42,847 nucleotides of DNA from a virus: positions 1 to 42,847 of IMG/VR virus record IMGVR_UViG_3300009506_000071; one strand, given 5' to 3'. The notes below the pieces were generated by a model that saw only the letters and a program-made list of their open reading frames with translations, was not told the origin of the DNA and did no database searches. Of the stretch, positions 2,693-13,501 are shown in pieces. The position numbers and the translations under genes were made by a program. How positions within the stretch are numbered: position 1 is the stretch's first letter; every line of letters starts with the position of its first letter.

Positions 2693-3024
2693 CAGTTGCC
2701 TCCCACCCACATTCGTTCAGCCGGGGCCGGGGTCCAGTCTACCCCGTCCAGCCGCGCGCGTAGAGCCTGCGGCAGAACGTCCAGCGCGTGGGTGGTCGAA
2801 TACCCGCACTCTTTGCGGAGCAGGATGAACCAGTCGTAGATAATGTTCGTCCTCCGCTTCGTCTCCGCTTGCGTGGCTTCCGAGATCCTCCGCGCCCCGA
2901 GGTCCTCGACCAAGCTGTCGCTGACTATCCGCATGAAACTATGGAAGACTCGCTGCGCTTGGATGGGGTCGCCCAGCGTCTCCATGAGGACCGTGTGCTT
3001 GTCTCGTGCAATGATGTTCGCCAT
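2692..3024 (-). CDS. Hypothetical protein, 110 aa, head gene region
   Basis: Not recognised. The protein is mostly helical with an acidic-basic mix and no Cys-rich or membrane segment. Its stop overlaps the start of the large GxHxH protein (TGATG), so the two are probably translated together. A 30-base gap separates it from the Mu F-like gene. The ATG start has only a weak ribosome binding site. Its position suggests a small structural or connector protein, which is inference only. Confidence 0.75.
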   Translation of the reverse strand: MANIIARDKHTVLMETLGDPIQAQRVFHSFMRIVSDSLVEDLGARRISEATQAETKRRTNIIYDWFILLRKECGYSTTHALDVLPQALRARLDGVDWTPAPAERMWVGGN

Positions 3025-3054
3025 AGCGGTGCAGGATACTGCACAACGGCGAAG

Positions 3055-4278
3055 CTACAAGACGGGAAGCAACGTGCAGCGACAACCCTCGTGGGCGGGC
3101 GGAACTTGCATCCCTTCGGTCGATTGGGCCGGCGTGATGGTCTGAAAGTTCGTCGGCAACTCCCCGCGTTCTTGGGTGAATCGTGCCACGGGCGTGTCGG
3201 AGCCGCGCACCGAGATCACGTCCCCGCGCACGCGGTAGAATTGCATGTCGGCGAGCGCGGCGTCCGCGTCGGGCGCTGCGTCTGCGCGAGCGAAGCGGTC
3301 CACAGCTTCGCTGACCGGGAACTTCTGCCCGTTGAGGAAGACGCATATCGGGCACGTCGCCTCGTCCATCGCTGCCGTCCACTCGTACTCTTGGAACCCG
3401 CCGTCGCGGAAACCGCTCACCTGCCCGTAGCTTCGGGCCTTCGTCATCGCAACGTTGGCGACCATGCGGTAGTAAGCCTCCGACCTGCCGCTCACCCGCT
3501 TGCCCAGCGCGTCGTAGAGCTGGATGCCGACCGACTTGCTGTCGAGCCCGTCGGCTATGCCCGCCTTGATGATCTTGTTCGCGTCGGTCGCCCACCGCGC
3601 GGCTCGCTTGTGGTAGTCGTTCTGGATCCAGAAGAGCTGGTCCTTGCCGATGCGCGACACGGCAGCTTGGTCGGGCAAGTCCAGGAACGGTTTGACCGCC
3701 GCCCTGCGCGCCGACCCGCGAGCGGCTGCCGCGACCTTCAAGCCTTGCTCGGTAAGCGGTCCCGTGACGGCGACGGTGAGCCCGCGATTCCTAGCGATCG
3801 CAGCGATGGTGACCGACACGGCGGCGATCTCCGCCTCGGTGACCGCAGCGCTGAAGGTAACCCAGTCCGCGTTCAGGACTTTCCGCAGCTTGCGAAGCGC
3901 CCGCCCCTCCGCAGCCGTGGCGCCCTTCATCAGTTGCCTGTGGATCCGGTCCACCATCCTGGCGAACTCTCTGCGATTCATCGGGTTGGGCGCCTTGTCG
4001 AGTCGCACGACGCTCTGCGGGCGAACGTAGAGCCACTCGCCCGATCGCCGCTTGATCTTCCCGCGGAACACGAGCGCCGTTCCGTCGCCCTCCGCTGCTA
4101 GCTTCACGGCTTTGAACGCAGCGCCGGCCGGCCCGAGCAACGACGTCTCGACCCGCCCCAGCGAAGGCGAAGCTGCGGTCCAGCTCTCGCACTCGACCAG
4201 GACGGGCGGGTCGTCTTCGAGCGACTTCGGCTCAGGGACCAGCCGCCAAGGCGGTCCTGCTAGTGCTACCCGGTCCAC
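3055..4278 (-). CDS. Mu F-like minor head protein (SPP1 gp7 family)
   Basis: 407 aa from a GTG start preceded by AAGAGGT; the start lies inside the end of the upstream gene. The C-terminal third carries the family signature: a helical region ending in an Arg-rich YYRMVANVAMTKARSYG, then DEATCPICVFLNGQKFPV, and at the end PPAHEGCRCTLLPVL. The paired CPIC and HxxCRC motifs are typical of Phage_Mu_F (PF04233). These proteins bind the portal vertex inside the head and are needed for assembly or DNA ejection. Its place directly after the portal gene and two small genes fits. The N-terminal 130 residues are less conserved and may contact other head proteins. Confidence 0.9.
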   Translation of the reverse strand: MDRVALAGPPWRLVPEPKSLEDDPPVLVECESWTAASPSLGRVETSLLGPAGAAFKAVKLAAEGDGTALVFRGKIKRRSGEWLYVRPQSVVRLDKAPNPMNRREFARMVDRIHRQLMKGATAAEGRALRKLRKVLNADWVTFSAAVTEAEIAAVSVTIAAIARNRGLTVAVTGPLTEQGLKVAAAARGSARRAAVKPFLDLPDQAAVSRIGKDQLFWIQNDYHKRAARWATDANKIIKAGIADGLDSKSVGIQLYDALGKRVSGRSEAYYRMVANVAMTKARSYGQVSGFRDGGFQEYEWTAAMDEATCPICVFLNGQKFPVSEAVDRFARADAAPDADAALADMQFYRVRGDVISVRGSDTPVARFTQERGELPTNFQTITPAQSTEGMQVPPAHEGCRCTLLPVL

Positions 4279-7351: not shown

Positions 7352-7587
7352 TTCAACGCCCCGTCGGTCCCCACGGACAGCGAGCGAACCGTCATCTTCT
7401 CAGATTCGACGACGCGCTTCACCTGCTCTCTGGCATCGTCGAGGTTCTTCGCCATAACGTGGAAGTCGCGGTGCTTCTTAGGCTTGACCGCTGCGAGCTG
7501 CCGCAACCGTTCCAGCGGCAGCGAGCGGTCTAGTTTCGGGGCAACGGATATTTGAACGCGGAAGCGTTGCTTGGGTTCACGCGGCAT
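7330..7587 (-). CDS. Small basic hypothetical protein, 85 aa
   Basis: The start is placed at the ATG of MPREPKQRFRVQ, inside the end of the preceding gene; in-frame codons further upstream give an unlikely Arg/Ser-rich translation. The protein is Lys/Arg-rich (LAAVKPKKHRDFHVMAKN) with a possible helix AKNLDDAREQVKRVVESEK. It looks like a small alpha/beta protein, perhaps binding nucleic acid, but this rests only on charge. Confidence 0.6.
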   Translation of the reverse strand: MPREPKQRFRVQISVAPKLDRSLPLERLRQLAAVKPKKHRDFHVMAKNLDDAREQVKRVVESEKMTVRSLSVGTDGALKCVAMKG

Positions 7588-7759
7588 CGACGGCGAAGGT
7601 GGCACGCTCACGAACCTTGCGCAACACCTCGACGAGAGTCGTTGCCCAAGCTTCGATCTGCGGGGCGTTCGTAGCCTTTGCTTGGTACAGCTCCCCAACC
7701 TTGGTGACGTGGACGAGGAAGGGTCCACCCTCGGTTACCACTTCAAACATAGCGCCCAT
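7577..7759 (-). CDS. Small hypothetical protein, 60 aa
   Basis: The ATG follows an almost perfect ribosome binding site (AAAGGAGGT) at good spacing, which fixes the start. The product has a beta-rich N-terminus (MGAMFEVVTEGGPFLVHV) and a C-terminal helix. It lies 59 bases after the DAHP synthase gene and may be the first gene after the modification operon. Function unknown. Confidence 0.7.
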   Translation of the reverse strand: MGAMFEVVTEGGPFLVHVTKVGELYQAKATNAPQIEAWATTLVEVLRKVRERATFAVDAA

Positions 7760-7818
7760 GGGGGACCTCCTTTCAATCGTACTGCCTAACTGAAAAGTAG
7801 ATCCGCGCGCGGCGTCGG
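7760..7818 (-). promoter_or_regulatory. Short gap with strong ribosome binding site after the modification operon
   Basis: 59 bases between the DAHP synthase stop and the next ATG, containing AAAGGAGGT. It is one of the few non-overlapping junctions in this part of the genome. I see no convincing intrinsic terminator or promoter in it. Confidence 0.4.
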
Positions 7819-8823
7819 TCAACCTGCCGCGACCGCGAAACCATCCTGCAATCGTTGGTTCAACACGATTGCTTCGCGCGGCGTCAACGCTTGCGGCCCG
7901 TCGGAGACCGCCTTGCCAGGGTCGTTGTGGACCTCGACCATGACCCCCGTCGCCCCGGCTACGGTGGAGGCGTATGCCAAGGGGAGGACGAGGTCTCGCC
8001 TACCCGCTCCGTGGGACGGGTCAGCCATCACCAAGAGGCCGAACCCGTGCGACAGCATCGCGACGGCGCCGAGGTCGAGAACGTTGCGCGTCCACGGGTC
8101 GAAGCTGCGAATACCGCGCTCGCAGAACACCACCGCGGAAGCTCCCGCCATCAGCAAGCGCTCCCCGCACAGCAGCCACTCTTTGATCGTGGACGCCATG
8201 CCGCGCTTGAGCAGGACGGGCTTGCCGCACCTGCCGACTCGGTTGAGCAAAGCTTGGCTGCTCATCGAGCGCGAGCCGACTTGCATGACGTCAGCCAAAG
8301 CGGAAACGGCGTCGGCGTCCTCCTCGCTCAAGCACTCGGTCACGACTTGCATCCCGTAGGTGTCCGCGGCTTCGCGCATCCACTCCAAGCCTTTGACCCC
8401 GTGCCCGTGGAACGAGTGGGGCGAGGTGCGGGGCTTGAAGGCACCGCCGCGAAGGAACCGTACACCGCCTCCGGCGAGCTCCCCGGCAATGTCGGCGATC
8501 TGCTCCTTGCTCTCCACGGAGCACGGGCCGGCAACGACGGTTGGAGCTTCCCCGATGAACTGGTCCCCGACCGCGACGATCTTGGGTTGCTTCTCGAGAA
8601 GCATGCAATCGAACCCCGCCGTGAACACGCTAGCGACGCCCGGGATCGTTTCCAGCTCCCGCGGGTTCACCACGGCCGAGCGGGCTTCCACGGCCAGCGT
8701 CGTTTGCCCGTCGCGGTTACGACGCGGGGACGACCACAGCCCGCGGCGCGCCAGCTCGGAAGCAACCTCCTTCGGGTCGCCGTCTTCACGGAGCGTAACG
8801 AAGAAGTTTGAAGCTTGGATCAT
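7819..8823 (-). CDS. aroF: 3-deoxy-D-arabino-heptulosonate-7-phosphate (DAHP) synthase, type I-beta
   Basis: 334 aa, close in length to Thermotoga maritima DAHP synthase. The enzyme condenses phosphoenolpyruvate and erythrose 4-phosphate, the entry step to chorismate and prephenate. Residues 1-80 resemble the ferredoxin-like regulatory domain of that subclass. The barrel has GPCSVES (Cys101), [34 protein letters not shown] (His271), VEVH (Glu297) and SDG (Asp308), so all four metal ligands expected for the family are present. Its ATG overlaps the chorismate mutase stop (ATGA), so the two are coupled. Free-standing chorismate mutase next to DAHP synthase recalls bacterial fusions of the two. 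In this operon its likely job is to raise prephenate supply for the CmoA-like enzyme; that role is inferred, while the enzyme call is firm. Confidence 0.95.
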
Positions 8824-9095
8824 CTTTCCATCTCCCTAGCAACCAACGCTCGGCACTCTCCCACAATGGTGGAAAGGATCAACCGCACGGACCTTTCGCC
8901 GAGCAGGTCCGCGGCTTCCGACTCCGCGGCACGCTCGATGACTCGACGCTCCCGCAGCCTGTCGAACACGGGCTGACCATCTTCGAGCTTCCGCTGCGCC
9001 ACCAACTTCGCTACCGTGGCCCGCTTCCCCAGCAGCCGAACGAGCTCGTCGTCGATCTCGTCGATGCGCACCCGCAGCTCTTGGAGGTCGCTCAC
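8820..9095 (-). CDS. Chorismate mutase, AroQ type
   Basis: 91 aa from a GTG that overlaps the CmoA-like stop (GTGA); an in-frame upstream extension is less likely. Chorismate mutase rearranges chorismate to prephenate. The AroQ active-site residues appear at the family spacing: Arg8 (LRVRIDEID), Arg25 (GKR), Lys36 (AQRK), Asp45, Arg48 and Glu49 ([11 protein letters not shown]), with Glu80 a candidate for the last polar residue. It is a minimal, all-helical, unfused domain expected to dimerise. Its product is the co-substrate of CmoA, whose homologue is encoded directly before it, and DAHP synthase follows directly after it. This makes prephenate production the probable purpose of the pair. 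Confidence 0.93.
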
Positions 9096-9814
9096 TTGAC
9101 CCCCACCCACGCAGCGAAGTTCAAGCAACGCCAGAAGCACTCCACCGAGCCGAACCCAGCGGACGCCAAGAGGTCCTCGTTCCAGCGCGCCGTCACCGGG
9201 ACGAGCACGCCTTCCAAGCTTTGGGCCTTGCGGTCGATCTCCTCTTGGCTGTACCCGTTTCGGCGCTTCAGCTCGTGGTACATGCGGACCAGCATGTCGT
9301 TAGACTCCGCCGTGGAGCCGAGCACCTTCTCGACCAGGACGATGCACCCGCCCGAAACCGTGGTCCGCCACACGTCGCGCAGGATGCGGAGCCGGTGCTC
9401 GATCGGCATGAACTGCAAGGCGAGCACGAGCATCGAAGCCGTCTTGTCCTCCACGCCGGGCGGGTATCCTTCCCGGAGGTCGAACTCGTGCACGTGGACG
9501 CGCGGGTCGTCCTTGAACCGAGTTCGGCAAACCTTGACCATCGGGCGCGAAACCTCGACCAAGTCCAACCGCTCGTCGTCGCGCAGGTGCCGCAGCAGGA
9601 ACGACCCGGCGTCGCCGCGCGAAGCTCCGAGGTCGACGACGGAGCGCTTCAACTCCCCGAAGGAGAGCGCAACCTCCGCGACCATCGACCGCATGACGTC
9701 GATCTGCGGGATCGATCGGGCCAGCATGTCGACGAAGACGTCGGTCACCTCCGCGTCGAACTCCCACTTCGCTTTGCGGGGCATGTGGCCGAGGCTACTG
9801 GTAGAGGTTTGCAT
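9092..9814 (-). CDS. cmoA: CmoA-like carboxy-SAM synthase
   Basis: 240 aa from the ATG that overlaps the end of the asnB-like gene; ATG codons at 9850 and 9784 are alternatives. CmoA converts SAM and prephenate to carboxy-SAM. It resembles Escherichia coli CmoA along its length: WEFDAEVTDVFVDMLARSIP, the SAM motif VVDLGASRGDAG (59-70), LALQFMPIEHR, then MYHELKRRNGYSQEEIDRK and the C-terminal [14 protein letters not shown]. In my by-eye alignment the E. coli Arg199 that holds the carboxylate falls on Ala197, with Arg195 two residues earlier, so substrate use could differ. The neighbouring chorismate mutase supports prephenate as substrate. In bacteria CmoA works with CmoB on tRNA wobble uridine; no CmoB is seen here and the obvious acceptor enzyme is the DNA methyltransferase in the same operon. 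Confidence 0.87.
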   Translation of the reverse strand: MQTSTSSLGHMPRKAKWEFDAEVTDVFVDMLARSIPQIDVMRSMVAEVALSFGELKRSVVDLGASRGDAGSFLLRHLRDDERLDLVEVSRPMVKVCRTRFKDDPRVHVHEFDLREGYPPGVEDKTASMLVLALQFMPIEHRLRILRDVWRTTVSGGCIVLVEKVLGSTAESNDMLVRMYHELKRRNGYSQEEIDRKAQSLEGVLVPVTARWNEDLLASAGFGSVECFWRCLNFAAWVGVK

Positions 9815-11171
9815 GGACCCCACGATAGAACTTTGCGGGGTCGGAGACAATGCGAGCGCATCGCTCCTTGAGGCCCATCCCGTCTTGGAACGCTAGCTTG
9901 GCCCGCTTGACCACGCTGGGCGGGACCATCCCGACGTGGGCGTCTTGCAGCACCGCCTTGGGGCGGGACTTCCCTTTCTGGACGAGGGTTTGGGGCAGCG
10001 ACAACGCAAGCTCGACGAGGCCCGTGTTGAGGAACGGGAGCCGGCACTCGACGCCGCGCGACATGAATATCTTGTTGCACCGCGCGAAGTTCTTGCGGTG
10101 CTGGTCCACGAACAACTGCTTCCTGTACTCGCGCCACCCCTGCTTCTTCAGCCCGTGGTAGGCGAAGCCGTAGCTCGCCCAAAGCTCGTCGCTTCCCTCG
10201 CCGCTGAACGTTACCTTGAACCCGTCGTCGCGCATCCGATCCGCGAGCGCCGAGCACGCCCACCCGATCTCGACCTGCGCCTTGTGCGGCATCTCGATGG
10301 TTCGGATGACCCCTGACAAGTCGTCGGAGCTCGGCGGGTTCACGCGCACCTCGCGCAGCTCGATCCCGAGGTGCTCGGCAACTTGCCGCGCCGCTTTCAA
10401 GTCCGGCGACTTCGGGTCCATGACTGCCACGTAGGCGACCAAGTCCGGGATGGTTTCGACCACGTGGGCCGCCACGGCAGCGGAGTCTATGCCGCCGCTG
10501 AGCAACGTGCAGACGGGAACGTCGCTGATGGTGCGCTCCAAGGAGCCGGCGCGCACCGCTCCCCGCACGTCCGACCGCGCCGACTCGTCGTCGCCTTGGT
10601 ACTTGCTCGCGGGCACGTCGTACCAAACGCGGCGCGTGAACCCATGTTTGGTTACCTCCCACAGCTCGCCGGGGCCGACCCACCGCACGCCGCGCGGGTC
10701 GCACCCGACCGCGAGCAACGCCTTGATCTCCGACGCGAACGCGAAGCGCTTGCCCACGAAGGCGTGCAAGGGAACCTCCCCGAACCTGTCGCGAGCGAGG
10801 AACAAGCGTTCGCCCTGCGTCCAAGCGACGGCGAACATCCCTTGCAGCTTCGGGAGCGCGTCCGCCCCCCAGCGGTCGAGCGCTGCCGCGAGGACCTCCG
10901 TGTCACCCGTCGTGTCGAAGCGCTCCCCGAGCGCCTCCAGCTCGGCGCGCAGCGCGTCGCGGTTCCACAGCTCCCCGTTATACGTCATCGCGAGCTCGCC
11001 CCGCTCGAACGGCTGGTTGGACCGCGCGTTCAAGTCTTGGATCGAGAGCCGGGTGTGGCCCAGCCAAAAGTCCCCGAGCTCCACCATGCCCGAAGCGTCC
11101 GGCCCCCGGTGGGCCACGGCTGCCACGGCGGCGATCCGGGCGCTGCCGATCCCGCCGACTACGCCGCACAC
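9795..11171 (-). CDS. asnB: Glutamine-dependent asparagine synthetase-like amidotransferase (AsnB family)
   Basis: 458 aa. The start is fixed at a GTG directly followed by the TGC of catalytic Cys2, giving MCGVVGGIG after processing, as this family requires; GGGGAG lies upstream. The glutaminase domain (1-190) has GHTRLSIQDL, NQPF, TYNGELWN and TTGDTEV. The synthetase domain has the pyrophosphate loop SGGIDS (225-230), SGEGSDELWASYG (323-335) and CRLPFLNTGLVELALSLP. The family adenylates a carboxylate and replaces AMP by ammonia from glutamine. All catalytic motifs are present. Asparagine synthesis for the cell is possible, but its place between the methyltransferase and Cx-SAM genes suggests amidation of a carboxymethylated base. 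Substrate is not known. It overlaps the neighbours by 13 and 20 bases. Confidence 0.92.
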   Translation of the reverse strand: MCGVVGGIGSARIAAVAAVAHRGPDASGMVELGDFWLGHTRLSIQDLNARSNQPFERGELAMTYNGELWNRDALRAELEALGERFDTTGDTEVLAAALDRWGADALPKLQGMFAVAWTQGERLFLARDRFGEVPLHAFVGKRFAFASEIKALLAVGCDPRGVRWVGPGELWEVTKHGFTRRVWYDVPASKYQGDDESARSDVRGAVRAGSLERTISDVPVCTLLSGGIDSAAVAAHVVETIPDLVAYVAVMDPKSPDLKAARQVAEHLGIELREVRVNPPSSDDLSGVIRTIEMPHKAQVEIGWACSALADRMRDDGFKVTFSGEGSDELWASYGFAYHGLKKQGWREYRKQLFVDQHRKNFARCNKIFMSRGVECRLPFLNTGLVELALSLPQTLVQKGKSRPKAVLQDAHVGMVPPSVVKRAKLAFQDGMGLKERCARIVSDPAKFYRGVHANLYQ

Positions 11172-11626
11172 CGGGCAACTCCCCGCAGCGCCCGCTCCGC
11201 CAGCGCCAAGTTGGCTGGGTCGTTCCACCAGCGGTTCAGGCCGGAAGGGTGCGGAACCACCATGAACGTCAAGCCATTGCTCTGCCGCCACTCAAAGAAA
11301 GGTCTGGCGGGCACCTGGAACGCTCTGGCGACCCCGGACCCGAGCAGGATAGCTCGTCGCCCGGCCAAGTAGCCCCGGAGCTTACGGGCCGCCCTAGCAG
11401 CCATGCCGTGGGGGAACCTGTCCCCCCCGGTTCCCCGGCCCGGGTATCGGCCCAGCAGGTTGGTCAGCGCGAAGCAGCTCCCGAGCTCCCCGTGGGCCAG
11501 CCCCGCGAGCGCTTCCAAACGCTGGCCGGACTTCCCCGAGAGCGGGGGCTTGCGGCTTCGGCCCACGCTCGGGGCTTGCCCGACCACGACGGTCTTCCCG
11601 GCCGCGTCAAACCAAACCCGGCTCAC
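11159..11626 (-). CDS. Uracil-DNA-glycosylase-superfamily protein
   Basis: 155 aa from a GTG overlapping the methyltransferase stop (GTGA) with GGAGG seven bases upstream. The fold is suggested by VVVGQAPS (12-20) followed by PPLSGKSGQRLEAL, then LTNLLGRYPG, RRAILLGSGVARAF and VVPHPSGLNRWW (123-134), which match motif 1, the conserved core and motif 2 (HPS) of the superfamily. I see no acidic or Asn residue at the usual catalytic place after GQAPS, so it may not excise uracil. It could recognise or remove an unwanted base during DNA modification, or act as a non-catalytic base-binding protein. Both are inference. Confidence 0.8.
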   Translation of the reverse strand: MSRVWFDAAGKTVVVGQAPSVGRSRKPPLSGKSGQRLEALAGLAHGELGSCFALTNLLGRYPGRGTGGDRFPHGMAARAARKLRGYLAGRRAILLGSGVARAFQVPARPFFEWRQSNGLTFMVVPHPSGLNRWWNDPANLALAERALRGVARCAA

Positions 11627-12906
11627 AGAGCAACCTCCGAAGCGCCCTTCGCGACACGGTCCGCGAGCAGCTCGTCGCGGATCGTCCGAGCTATGTGGAA
11701 CATCATGATGGGCGGGACCGAGCGGCCCATGCGCTCCCACTTCTTCGCGTAGTTCCCCAGCAACTGGAAGTCCTCCGGGAAAGCGCACAGGCGCATGAGC
11801 TCGGCGATCGTGAACTTGCGGGTGCCGCACGGGAACACGACGCTGGCAGCTCCGCGCGGCCCGCCCCCGGCCGTGATGGTGTTCACGGGCTTGTCGGGGT
11901 TGGTCCGAACCAAGTTCTGGTAGCGTTGCGAGATCCCGCCGAGGTCGAGCTTCTTCACCTCGGCACCGATAGCGGTTCCTTTCAACGAGACTTCCTTGGC
12001 TTCCACCTCGTCGATGAGCCACTGCGACGGGGACCCGGCGCAGATGGTAGCCATCGGCTCGTCGGCGCTCATCGTCATCTTCTTGCAGGTCCACTTGTCG
12101 GACTTGCTCCCCGAGTCCCAGTAGGCCCGAGCAGCGACGGGGACGGCGTCCTTGAGCGCGTAGGTGTACGGGAACGGCTTCGGGTGCACAGGGTCGCGCT
12201 TCAGGTCCTCGCGCACGCCGACGAAGATGACCCGACGCCGCGCCTGCGGGACGCCCAGCCACTTGGCGTCGAGCAGCTTGGCTGACACGCGGTAGCCGAG
12301 CGCTTTCATCCTCGCCATGATCGTCTTGAAGTACCCGAACGCGACGCCGCGCACGAGCCCCGCGACGTTCTCCGCCACGAACACGCGGGGCTGGATGCCT
12401 TCGACCAAGCGGATGAACTCGAAGAACAGGTCGTCGGTTCGCTGCTTCTTGTCCGAGTAGTTCTTGACCGTCCCCCAAGTTTTCTCGCGCCTGCCCGACA
12501 TCGAGAACGACGCGCAAGGAGGCGACCCTTCGAGCACGTCGAGCTCCCCCGGCTCCATCCCGATCGCTTCCAGGATATGCGCTGCTTCGACCTTGCGAAT
12601 GTCGCGCCCATCCACGGTCACGCCGGGGTGGTTCAGCTCGTACGTTTGGCGCGCGAGCTCCACGAACTCCGAAGCCCACACGACGTCGAAGCCCGCCATC
12701 TCGAACCCGAGGCACGAGCCCCCGCAGCCCGAGAAGGTGGACACGACCTTCAGCCCGTTGCTGCCGCGCACGTCCGCGATCTCCTTCATCGAAGGGATGC
12801 GGTACGGCGGGCGCCGAGCCTTGCCGTTACTTCCCTGGGGTCGTGTCGAAGCAGACGACGTGGAACCCGCACTGCGGGCAGGTGTGGGTCTTTTTTGCGC
12901 CTTCAT
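11623..12906 (-). CDS. C5-cytosine DNA methyltransferase with Arg in motif X; candidate DNA carboxymethyltransferase
   Basis: 427 aa. Motifs in order: I, VVSTFSGCGGSCLGFEMAG (54-72); IV, GSPPCASFS with nucleophile Cys131; VI, AENV (179-181); VIII, QARRRVIFVG (221-230); target recognition region with two P-x-x-TI-x-AG elements (near 284 and 340); IX, RKFTIAELMRLCAFPEDF; X, MGRSVPPIMM. Motif X normally reads GNSVPP; here Arg395 replaces Asn. In M.MpeI the Asn-to-Lys change at this place permits Cx-SAM use, so a natural Cx-SAM-dependent enzyme is plausible. The ATG has GAGGAG upstream but the gene then overlaps the ParB-like gene by 80 bases; ATG 12789 is an alternative without a clear site. No restriction endonuclease is nearby. 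The family is certain, the cofactor is inferred. Confidence 0.93.
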   Translation of the reverse strand: MKAQKRPTPARSAGSTSSASTRPQGSNGKARRPPYRIPSMKEIADVRGSNGLKVVSTFSGCGGSCLGFEMAGFDVVWASEFVELARQTYELNHPGVTVDGRDIRKVEAAHILEAIGMEPGELDVLEGSPPCASFSMSGRREKTWGTVKNYSDKKQRTDDLFFEFIRLVEGIQPRVFVAENVAGLVRGVAFGYFKTIMARMKALGYRVSAKLLDAKWLGVPQARRRVIFVGVREDLKRDPVHPKPFPYTYALKDAVPVAARAYWDSGSKSDKWTCKKMTMSADEPMATICAGSPSQWLIDEVEAKEVSLKGTAIGAEVKKLDLGGISQRYQNLVRTNPDKPVNTITAGGGPRGAASVVFPCGTRKFTIAELMRLCAFPEDFQLLGNYAKKWERMGRSVPPIMMFHIARTIRDELLADRVAKGASEVAL

Positions 12907-13501
12907 CGAACTCCTCGAAGTCTTCGGGTGCCTCGCCTACGTCGTTTGTTTTCGCGAGCGCAGCTCGCATCTTGTCGATGTCTGCCGGGTCCCAGCCGAT
13001 CGGTTCGCTCACGTCATCGAGCATGGCCAAGAGTCCCTCGGTATCCCAGCCGCCGAGTTCCACGATGCGGTTGTCCGCGAGCAGGTAGGCTTCGGCTTCC
13101 GATTCGTTCTCGAACGACACGCCGCGCTGGACAGGCACGTACCACTCGCCGTCGGGACCGGCCACGATCCGCTTCGGAGGTTCCTTCCCTTGCTCCTTCG
13201 CCGCGACGAGGTTTTCGATCCTGCCGTGTCCGGCCACCATCTTCCCCGACTTCTCGTCGATGAGGATCGCTTGGGTATAGCCCCAACGCTTGAGCGACTT
13301 GCTCAGCGCGAAGTGGTCGTGAAGCTTCGGGTTGCGGGGCCAACGCTGGAGCGTCGACAACGCCATCATCTCGATGCGCATGGACGCTTCGACCGACGCG
13401 GCTTCCGCTCCCTTACCGTTGTTCTTCTTCTCCGCCGCCGCTTTCTTGGCGACAGCTTTCTTCGTGACGCGGAGAGGCGCCTTCTTTTGTGCTGTGGGCA
13501 T
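12827..13501 (-). CDS. ParB-like nuclease-fold protein with C-terminal zinc ribbon
   Basis: 224 aa from the ATG of MPTAQKKAP; further upstream the frame looks non-coding. A Lys/Ala-rich N-terminus is followed by a ParB/Srx-fold domain: LQRWPRNPKLHDHFALSKSL, WGYTQAILIDEKSGKMVAGHG with R, then ESEAEAYLLADNR and LLAMLDDVSE. The end has TCPQCGFHVVC, a probable zinc site. ParB-fold domains bind or cut DNA and hydrolyse CTP in some families, and they are common next to phage DNA methyltransferase genes. It is the first gene of the modification operon and may guide or couple modification to DNA. That role is inference. Confidence 0.85.
   Translation of the reverse strand: MPTAQKKAPLRVTKKAVAKKAAAEKKNNGKGAEAASVEASMRIEMMALSTLQRWPRNPKLHDHFALSKSLKRWGYTQAILIDEKSGKMVAGHGRIENLVAAKEQGKEPPKRIVAGPDGEWYVPVQRGVSFENESEAEAYLLADNRIVELGGWDTEGLLAMLDDVSEPIGWDPADIDKMRAALAKTNDVGEAPEDFEEFDEGAKKTHTCPQCGFHVVCFDTTPGK

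Follow-up and report, generated by a model that had tools for sequence, protein, structure and literature searches.

A phage operon that may provision its own carboxy-SAM-dependent cytosine hypermodification

The IMG/VR viral contig IMGVR_UViG_3300009506_000071, analyzed here over its full 42,847 bases (61-70% G+C) and referred to as the window, carries seven reading frames on its minus strand, all of them present and arranged as one operon that runs from position 13501 to position 7819. In order, the operon encodes a ParB-like protein, a cytosine C5-methyltransferase (C5-MTase), a uracil-DNA glycosylase (UDG)-like protein, an AsnB-like ligase, a CmoA-like protein, an AroQ chorismate mutase (CM) and a 3-deoxy-D-arabino-heptulosonate 7-phosphate (DAHP) synthase (DAHPS), family assignments that Pfam, NCBIfam and PHROGs bear out at E-values between 1e-7 and 1e-124 (Table 1). 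A portal protein and the large terminase subunit are encoded on the same viral contig, and the label phage is therefore correct. The original prediction had described seven co-directional, overlapping genes, and the families, strand and order were found to be as described, the gene limits were slightly corrected and the claim of overlap fails at one junction. Successive genes overlap by 80, 4, 13, −10, 4 and 4 bases; the sole non-overlapping pair is AsnB/CmoA, where a 10-base gap is found that would become an overlap if CmoA started at 9814. The AsnB-like frame starts at 11171 with a GTG codon, giving MCGVVGG. We consider it likely that the operon is a self-provisioning CmoA-CmoX-CmoY hypermodification system, with CM and DAHPS in supply, amidation by ammonia as the closing step and the UDG-like protein as an accessory.

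Table 1. Coordinates and supporting matches of the seven operon genes in the window
Feature	Position	Strand	Support
ParB-like protein	12827..13501	-	PHROG 620 ParB-like 8e-29; reading frame overlaps CmoX
CmoX candidate, cytosine C5-carboxymethyltransferase; SPPC and ERMGRSVPP	11623..12906	-	Pfam DNA_methylase 7e-56; PDB 8YF3 3e-58
UDG-fold protein; GQAPS ... HPSGLNRWWND	11159..11626	-	Pfam UDG 8e-8; AlphaFold/Foldseek
AsnB-like protein with glutaminase and synthetase domains; CmoY-type amide ligase, predicted to use ammonia	9795..11171	-	TIGR01536 3e-80
CmoA, carboxy-SAM synthase candidate	9092..9784 (start approximate)	-	TIGR00740 1.4e-40; PDB 4GEK 1e-28
AroQ-type CM; predicted prephenate supply	8820..9095	-	Pfam CM_2 1.4e-16; 4-base overlap with CmoA
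DAHP synthase, B. subtilis/Thermotoga type I; predicted boost to shikimate entry	7819..8823	-	TIGR01361 9e-91; 4-base overlap with CM

Enzymes of this kind were recently characterized in Synechococcus phage S-B43, where CmoA makes carboxy-S-adenosylmethionine (Cx-SAM, or carboxy-SAM) from S-adenosylmethionine (SAM) and prephenate, the C5-MTase homolog CmoX yields 5-carboxymethylcytosine (5cxmC) and the AsnB-like CmoY joins glycine; for other CmoY clusters, other amines are the predicted substrates (Yang et al., Nat Commun, 7 December 2025; PMC12783734). The core chemistry is therefore no longer new. The original prediction, which had arrived at this chemistry for the window and had taken the system to be undescribed in phages, is right in outline about the former and was overtaken on the latter by the published CmoA-CmoX-CmoY pathway (PMC12783734).

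The C5-MTase of the window possesses both the C5-MTase fold and the SPPC nucleophile motif, and its top match among solved structures is SpCmoX (8YF3), well ahead of the runner-up (4e-23). In the 8YF3 crystal structure an Arg (R350) substitutes for the motif X Asn, and wild-type SpCmoX accepts only Cx-SAM (PMC12783734). The ERMGRSVPP stretch of the window enzyme aligns with ERVGRMVPP of 8YF3 and places an Arg at R350, so that the GRSVPP motif singled out in the original prediction is the published selectivity Arg. Moreover, Arg is found at motif X in every readable CmoX of 75 CmoA-bearing loci from searches with AsnB or CmoA, whereas Asn is found in 75/75 readable motifs of a control set of 80 viral loci, fetched by similarity to the methyltransferase of an Asn-type relative (L219, described below) with peptide patterns that excluded motif X; the sequences compared are related to one another and the counts are not independent events. 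CmoA, which accompanies CmoX in the window operon and across the set of 75 loci, was detected in 0/80 control loci and in 0/50 control contigs searched over their full length. The 8YF3 match, the Arg at R350 and the co-occurrence with CmoA make the window CmoX a well-supported candidate, on sequence grounds, for the Cx-SAM-dependent cytosine C5-carboxymethyltransferase, fed by CmoA, that had been proposed.

Several other CmoX arrangements were seen. Divergent C5-MTases that adjoin CmoA in L077, L078, L081, L082, L083 and L112 also carry Arg at motif X (GRTV), which suggests a second origin of carboxymethyltransferases, and in L007-L011 and L033 Arg-type CmoX genes stand in tandem pairs beside AsnB and CmoA, perhaps providing two sequence specificities. 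Moraxella phage Mcat8 (L209, KR093632.1) encodes an Arg-type CmoX (2992-4062, ERMGRMVAP) in a record where CmoA was not detected, and this enzyme might use carboxy-SAM from the host CmoA. In L155 (7515-9155) a window-like CmoX begins with a copied C-terminal part of the methyltransferase, including a second GRSVPP. Genes for UDG-like, DUF1653 and CmoA proteins come after it, and AsnB, CM and DAHPS were undetected in the fetched locus.

The closest relative found, L219, provides a natural control. Its portal is 67% identical to that of the window, a ParB-like protein of 49% identity occupies the same position, the small flanking genes are in the same order, and at the equivalent site it encodes an ordinary Asn-type methyltransferase (CGNSVPP). 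AsnB and DAHPS have no match in the 21-kb L219 locus, the extent of the DAHPS search, and CmoA and CM are absent across the whole 36.7-kb L219 contig. Relative to L219, the window contains a block from 11626 to 7819, inserted between the methyltransferase gene and the gene for an 81-residue protein (7580-7822), and the second difference is the Asn-to-Arg replacement in the methyltransferase. Both CM and DAHPS lie inside the block that L219 lacks, and the phage genes downstream of it are syntenic. The possibility that the DAHPS gene is host DNA at a prophage edge was rejected because genes syntenic with L219 follow directly after it, down to the portal.

The window CM scores 60.9 bits against a Pfam CM_2 cut-off of 27, and its residues R8, R25, K36, D45, R48 and E49 correspond to R11, R28, K39, D48, R51 and E52 of the E. 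coli enzyme (1ECM offset). Of 150 other AsnB/CmoA contigs, four contain a CM_2 match above the cut-off (L075, L089, L094 and L017); all four are of the CmoX type, with none among the 53 MT2-type contigs, and CM_2 is likewise absent from the 50 control contigs. The CM gene directly follows CmoA in L094, lies between ParB and CmoX in L075 and L089, and is found ~2 kb upstream of CmoX in L017, where the score is barely above the cut-off. The five CMs share 18-36% identity, R8, R25, K36, D45 and E49 are invariant among them, and R48 is kept in four of the five. Their different positions and low identity point to repeated recruitment of CM by other phages into or beside the CmoX cluster, on separate occasions. 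The role given to CM in the original prediction, supplying prephenate, is supported by this context. Host enzymes must cover the steps from DAHP to chorismate.

The DAHPS exceeds its equivalog cut-off (TIGR01361, 303.9 versus 267.8 bits) and its catalytic motifs are conserved. That it starts the supply, as was also proposed, is favored by its location within the block absent from L219, but it is seen in the window only, and its support as a part of the pathway is weaker than that of CM. A viral scan with the window DAHPS protein gave no relatives. Matches to DAHPS and CM obtained by tblastn in a phage collection, mainly short unannotated records under Listeria, Staphylococcus and Enterococcus phage names together with unverified fecal scaffolds, are taken to be mostly bacterial DNA and were not counted as support. 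The availability of prephenate for phage modification is named by Yang et al. as a matter needing investigation, and the main text of that paper, as distinct from its supplement, makes no mention of chorismate mutase, DAHP synthase or glycosylases (PMC12783734). A search for literature joining CM or DAHPS with phage genomes or Cx-SAM, which did not cover bioRxiv and most subscription journals, returned nothing relevant, and the provisioning of a DNA modification by CM and DAHPS appears to be undescribed in the searchable literature.

The AsnB-like ligase consists of an N-terminal glutaminase domain and an ATP-pyrophosphatase synthetase domain, each with its catalytic residues kept: Cys2, HTRLSIQD, YNGE and DTE in the former, LLSGGIDS and SGEGSDE in the latter. 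A search with the ligase protein alone showed that 29/29 viral AsnB-like relatives adjoin CmoX and/or CmoA. Yang et al. predicted ammonia use for a second ligase cluster that has a glutaminase domain (PMC12783734), and the window ligase is of that type. Since the motifs of both domains are kept and the relatives all lie beside CmoX or CmoA, the last step is most likely an ammonia-dependent amidation and the product of the operon is probably 5-carbamoylmethylcytosine. It is improbable that the core pathway holds and the ligase instead couples an amino acid or another amine, to give for example 5-glycylcarboxymethylcytosine. The sole characterized CmoY does ligate glycine and other clusters are predicted to act on other amines (PMC12783734), but the glutaminase domain of the window ligase is complete, Cys2 and its partner residues included; SpCmoY lacks such a domain, and an enzyme acting on an amino acid would have no use for one.

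Several observations weigh against the operon as we read it, and the first concern CmoA. The window CmoA is a candidate Cx-SAM synthase by sequence, with 4GEK (E. coli CmoA) and 1IM8 as the top matches among solved structures, but it scores under the TIGR00740 equivalog cut-off (139.5 versus 193.3 bits), as does the CmoA of Streptomyces phage TurkishDelight. By our own mapping of positions it has Ala at E. coli Arg199 and Ile at Tyr39; a further Ala stands where E. coli has a Thr, and these positions are mostly conserved in phage CmoAs. In E. coli CmoA the Arg199 side chain binds the cofactor carboxylate through a salt bridge (PMC3663124). These replacements could mean that the CmoA-like protein is degenerate or an otherwise acting methyltransferase and that the C5-MTase makes plain 5-methylcytosine. 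However, SpCmoA outpaces E. coli CmoA tenfold (PMC12783734) and yet has Glu at the Arg199 position, so that Arg199 is dispensable in phage CmoAs and does not define membership, and the idea that the window protein is disabled through loss of this residue is weakened. Wild-type SpCmoX, with the same Arg as the window enzyme, accepts only Cx-SAM, and L219 exemplifies, at the same locus, what a plain methyltransferase looks like; we therefore regard a 5-methylcytosine product as very improbable.

The supply genes and the ligase also present difficulties. CM is found in only ~5% of CmoX contigs, and its frequency there (4/77, versus 0/50 in controls; p = 0.15) is not significant by itself, so that the argument for supply turns on its placement in or beside the cluster. 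DAHPS occurs in no other CmoA contig (class I, 0/150; class II, 0/45), and its tie to the pathway therefore comes from one locus. Phage-borne metabolic genes are common in general, and together with the restriction of DAHPS to the window among CmoA contigs this would fit a general auxiliary acquisition of CM and DAHPS, serving aromatic amino-acid or other chorismate-derived supply, that lies beside CmoA by chance. We think this unlikely: both genes have 4-base overlaps with neighboring genes of the modification operon, both fall inside the block missing from L219, and the recurrence of divergent CMs at varied positions in or near CmoX clusters argues for recruitment to the pathway. For the glutaminase-type CmoY, represented by A0A7T0Q3R0, soluble protein was not obtained, and ammonia use is a prediction there too (PMC12783734). 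Finally, the S-B43 activities of CmoA, CmoX and glycine ligation were demonstrated by assay, on homologs, whereas the window system is known from its genes, through the gene identities, key residues, synteny and co-occurrence reported here; from these we infer the ammonia-derived product and the supply role of CM and DAHPS.

The UDG-like protein has a UDG fold by Pfam, an AlphaFold model with a pLDDT of 87, and Foldseek matches to UdgX, family 4 and TDG structures of up to 1e-5. The catalytic residue in UDG motif 1 is Asp, Glu or Asn (as in GQDPY, GEAPG and GINPG). In the window protein and four relatives this motif is GQAPS, and the usual catalytic acid is missing. The gene overlaps CmoX and AsnB, UDG-like genes occur in several other clusters or contigs (L017, L048-L050, L067, L089 and L155), and the TDG-like folds among its structural matches include structures bound to 5-carboxylcytosine, all of which would suit an essential part in the pathway, such as base excision and replacement or the removal of deaminated modified bases. 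UDG-like genes are nevertheless found in just 6/80 CmoX-type loci, and Asn-type L219 carries a homolog (1044-1763) away from its methyltransferase locus, so that the gene is not tied to carboxy-SAM. A step in the pathway, among whose genes the original prediction had listed it, is thus unsupported, an essential role is in our view unlikely, and an accessory function is the more probable one for the UDG-like gene. The ParB-like protein is recognized by PHROGs and unrecognized by Pfam at 1e-3; ParB adjoins many published CmoX genes (PMC12783734).

CmoA loci were also found in which CmoX is replaced. A C5-MTase is encoded in 80 of the 189 CmoA loci, and in another 74 its place is taken by a ParB-fused protein of the class I methyltransferase fold (phrog_5475). 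The two are mutually exclusive, never sharing a locus, and none of the 74 showed a ligase. The phrog_5475 protein, of ~505 residues, lies between ParB and CmoA (L168:7991-9505, also L036, L088, L177, L181, L187 and L195) and is a candidate for a second, non-C5 kind of carboxy-SAM-dependent transferase. In Alcaligenes phage Afa-NA1 (L114, PV550095.1) a CmoA 41% identical to that of the window (7962-8714) lies beside a portal gene in a neighborhood with adenine methylases, and no C5-MTase is annotated nearby.

As we picture the pathway, DAHPS would open the shikimate route, host enzymes would bring flux to chorismate, and the phage CM would convert chorismate to prephenate; that a phage supplies both the entry and the branch-point enzyme is deduced from established pathway knowledge. 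CmoA would then combine prephenate with SAM to form carboxy-SAM, and CmoX would pass the carboxymethyl group on to C5 of cytosine within a short sequence motif of the phage DNA to form 5cxmC. The AsnB-like ligase would adenylate the carboxylate and amidate it with glutamine-derived ammonia to yield 5-carbamoylmethylcytosine, and the modified base would most likely serve as protection from restriction. On the whole claim, that the phage rewires host metabolism through DAHPS and CM to feed a DNA modification, caps 5cxmC to 5-carbamoylmethylcytosine, and has counterparts elsewhere that recruited CM separately, we lean only slightly to the affirmative. If the GC motif of SpCmoX applies, the window contig contains ~9,900 modifiable cytosines, and at an assumed ~100 genomes per cell a burst would consume on the order of a million carboxy-SAM molecules, each requiring one prephenate. 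DAHPS and CM beside CmoA would thus be a direct answer to the published question of where phages obtain prephenate (PMC12783734), and an all-in-one carboxymethylation cassette could draw its genes from this natural operon.

Among known systems, that of S-B43 shares with the window an adjacent, co-directional CmoA, Arg-type C5-MTase and AsnB-family ligase, with a ParB neighbor in many members; the glutaminase domain, AroQ CM, DAHPS and UDG-like gene belong to the window, SpCmoY being a protein of ~270 residues without glutaminase. The glutaminase-type CmoY cluster of A0A7T0Q3R0 is like the window in having a two-domain, asparagine-synthetase-like ligase beside CmoX and CmoA and in its predicted use of ammonia. 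The E. coli CmoA/CmoB pathway to cmo5U in tRNA shares CmoA homology and the formation of Cx-SAM from prephenate and SAM, but no CmoB-like gene was recognized in the window operon, where the acceptor, by CmoX homology, would be DNA cytosine. In M.MpeI N374K, as cited by Yang et al. (PMC12783734), the motif X Asn has likewise given way to a basic residue, which permits acceptance of Cx-SAM; that enzyme is engineered and CG-specific, whereas the window enzyme is natural and carries Arg. The core gene set and order of the window do recur in another phage, although DAHPS was found in no other CmoA contig and CM in the four CmoX contigs described above: cultured Streptomyces phage TurkishDelight (NC_073473) has ParB-ParB-CmoX-AsnB-CmoA, with an Arg-type CmoX 48% identical to that of the window. 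The 8.5 kb examined of this phage showed no CM, DAHPS or UDG-like gene. The window operon points to a second predicted product of such systems, 5-carbamoylmethylcytosine, so far unobserved as a base in DNA, and TurkishDelight offers a cultured place to look for it.

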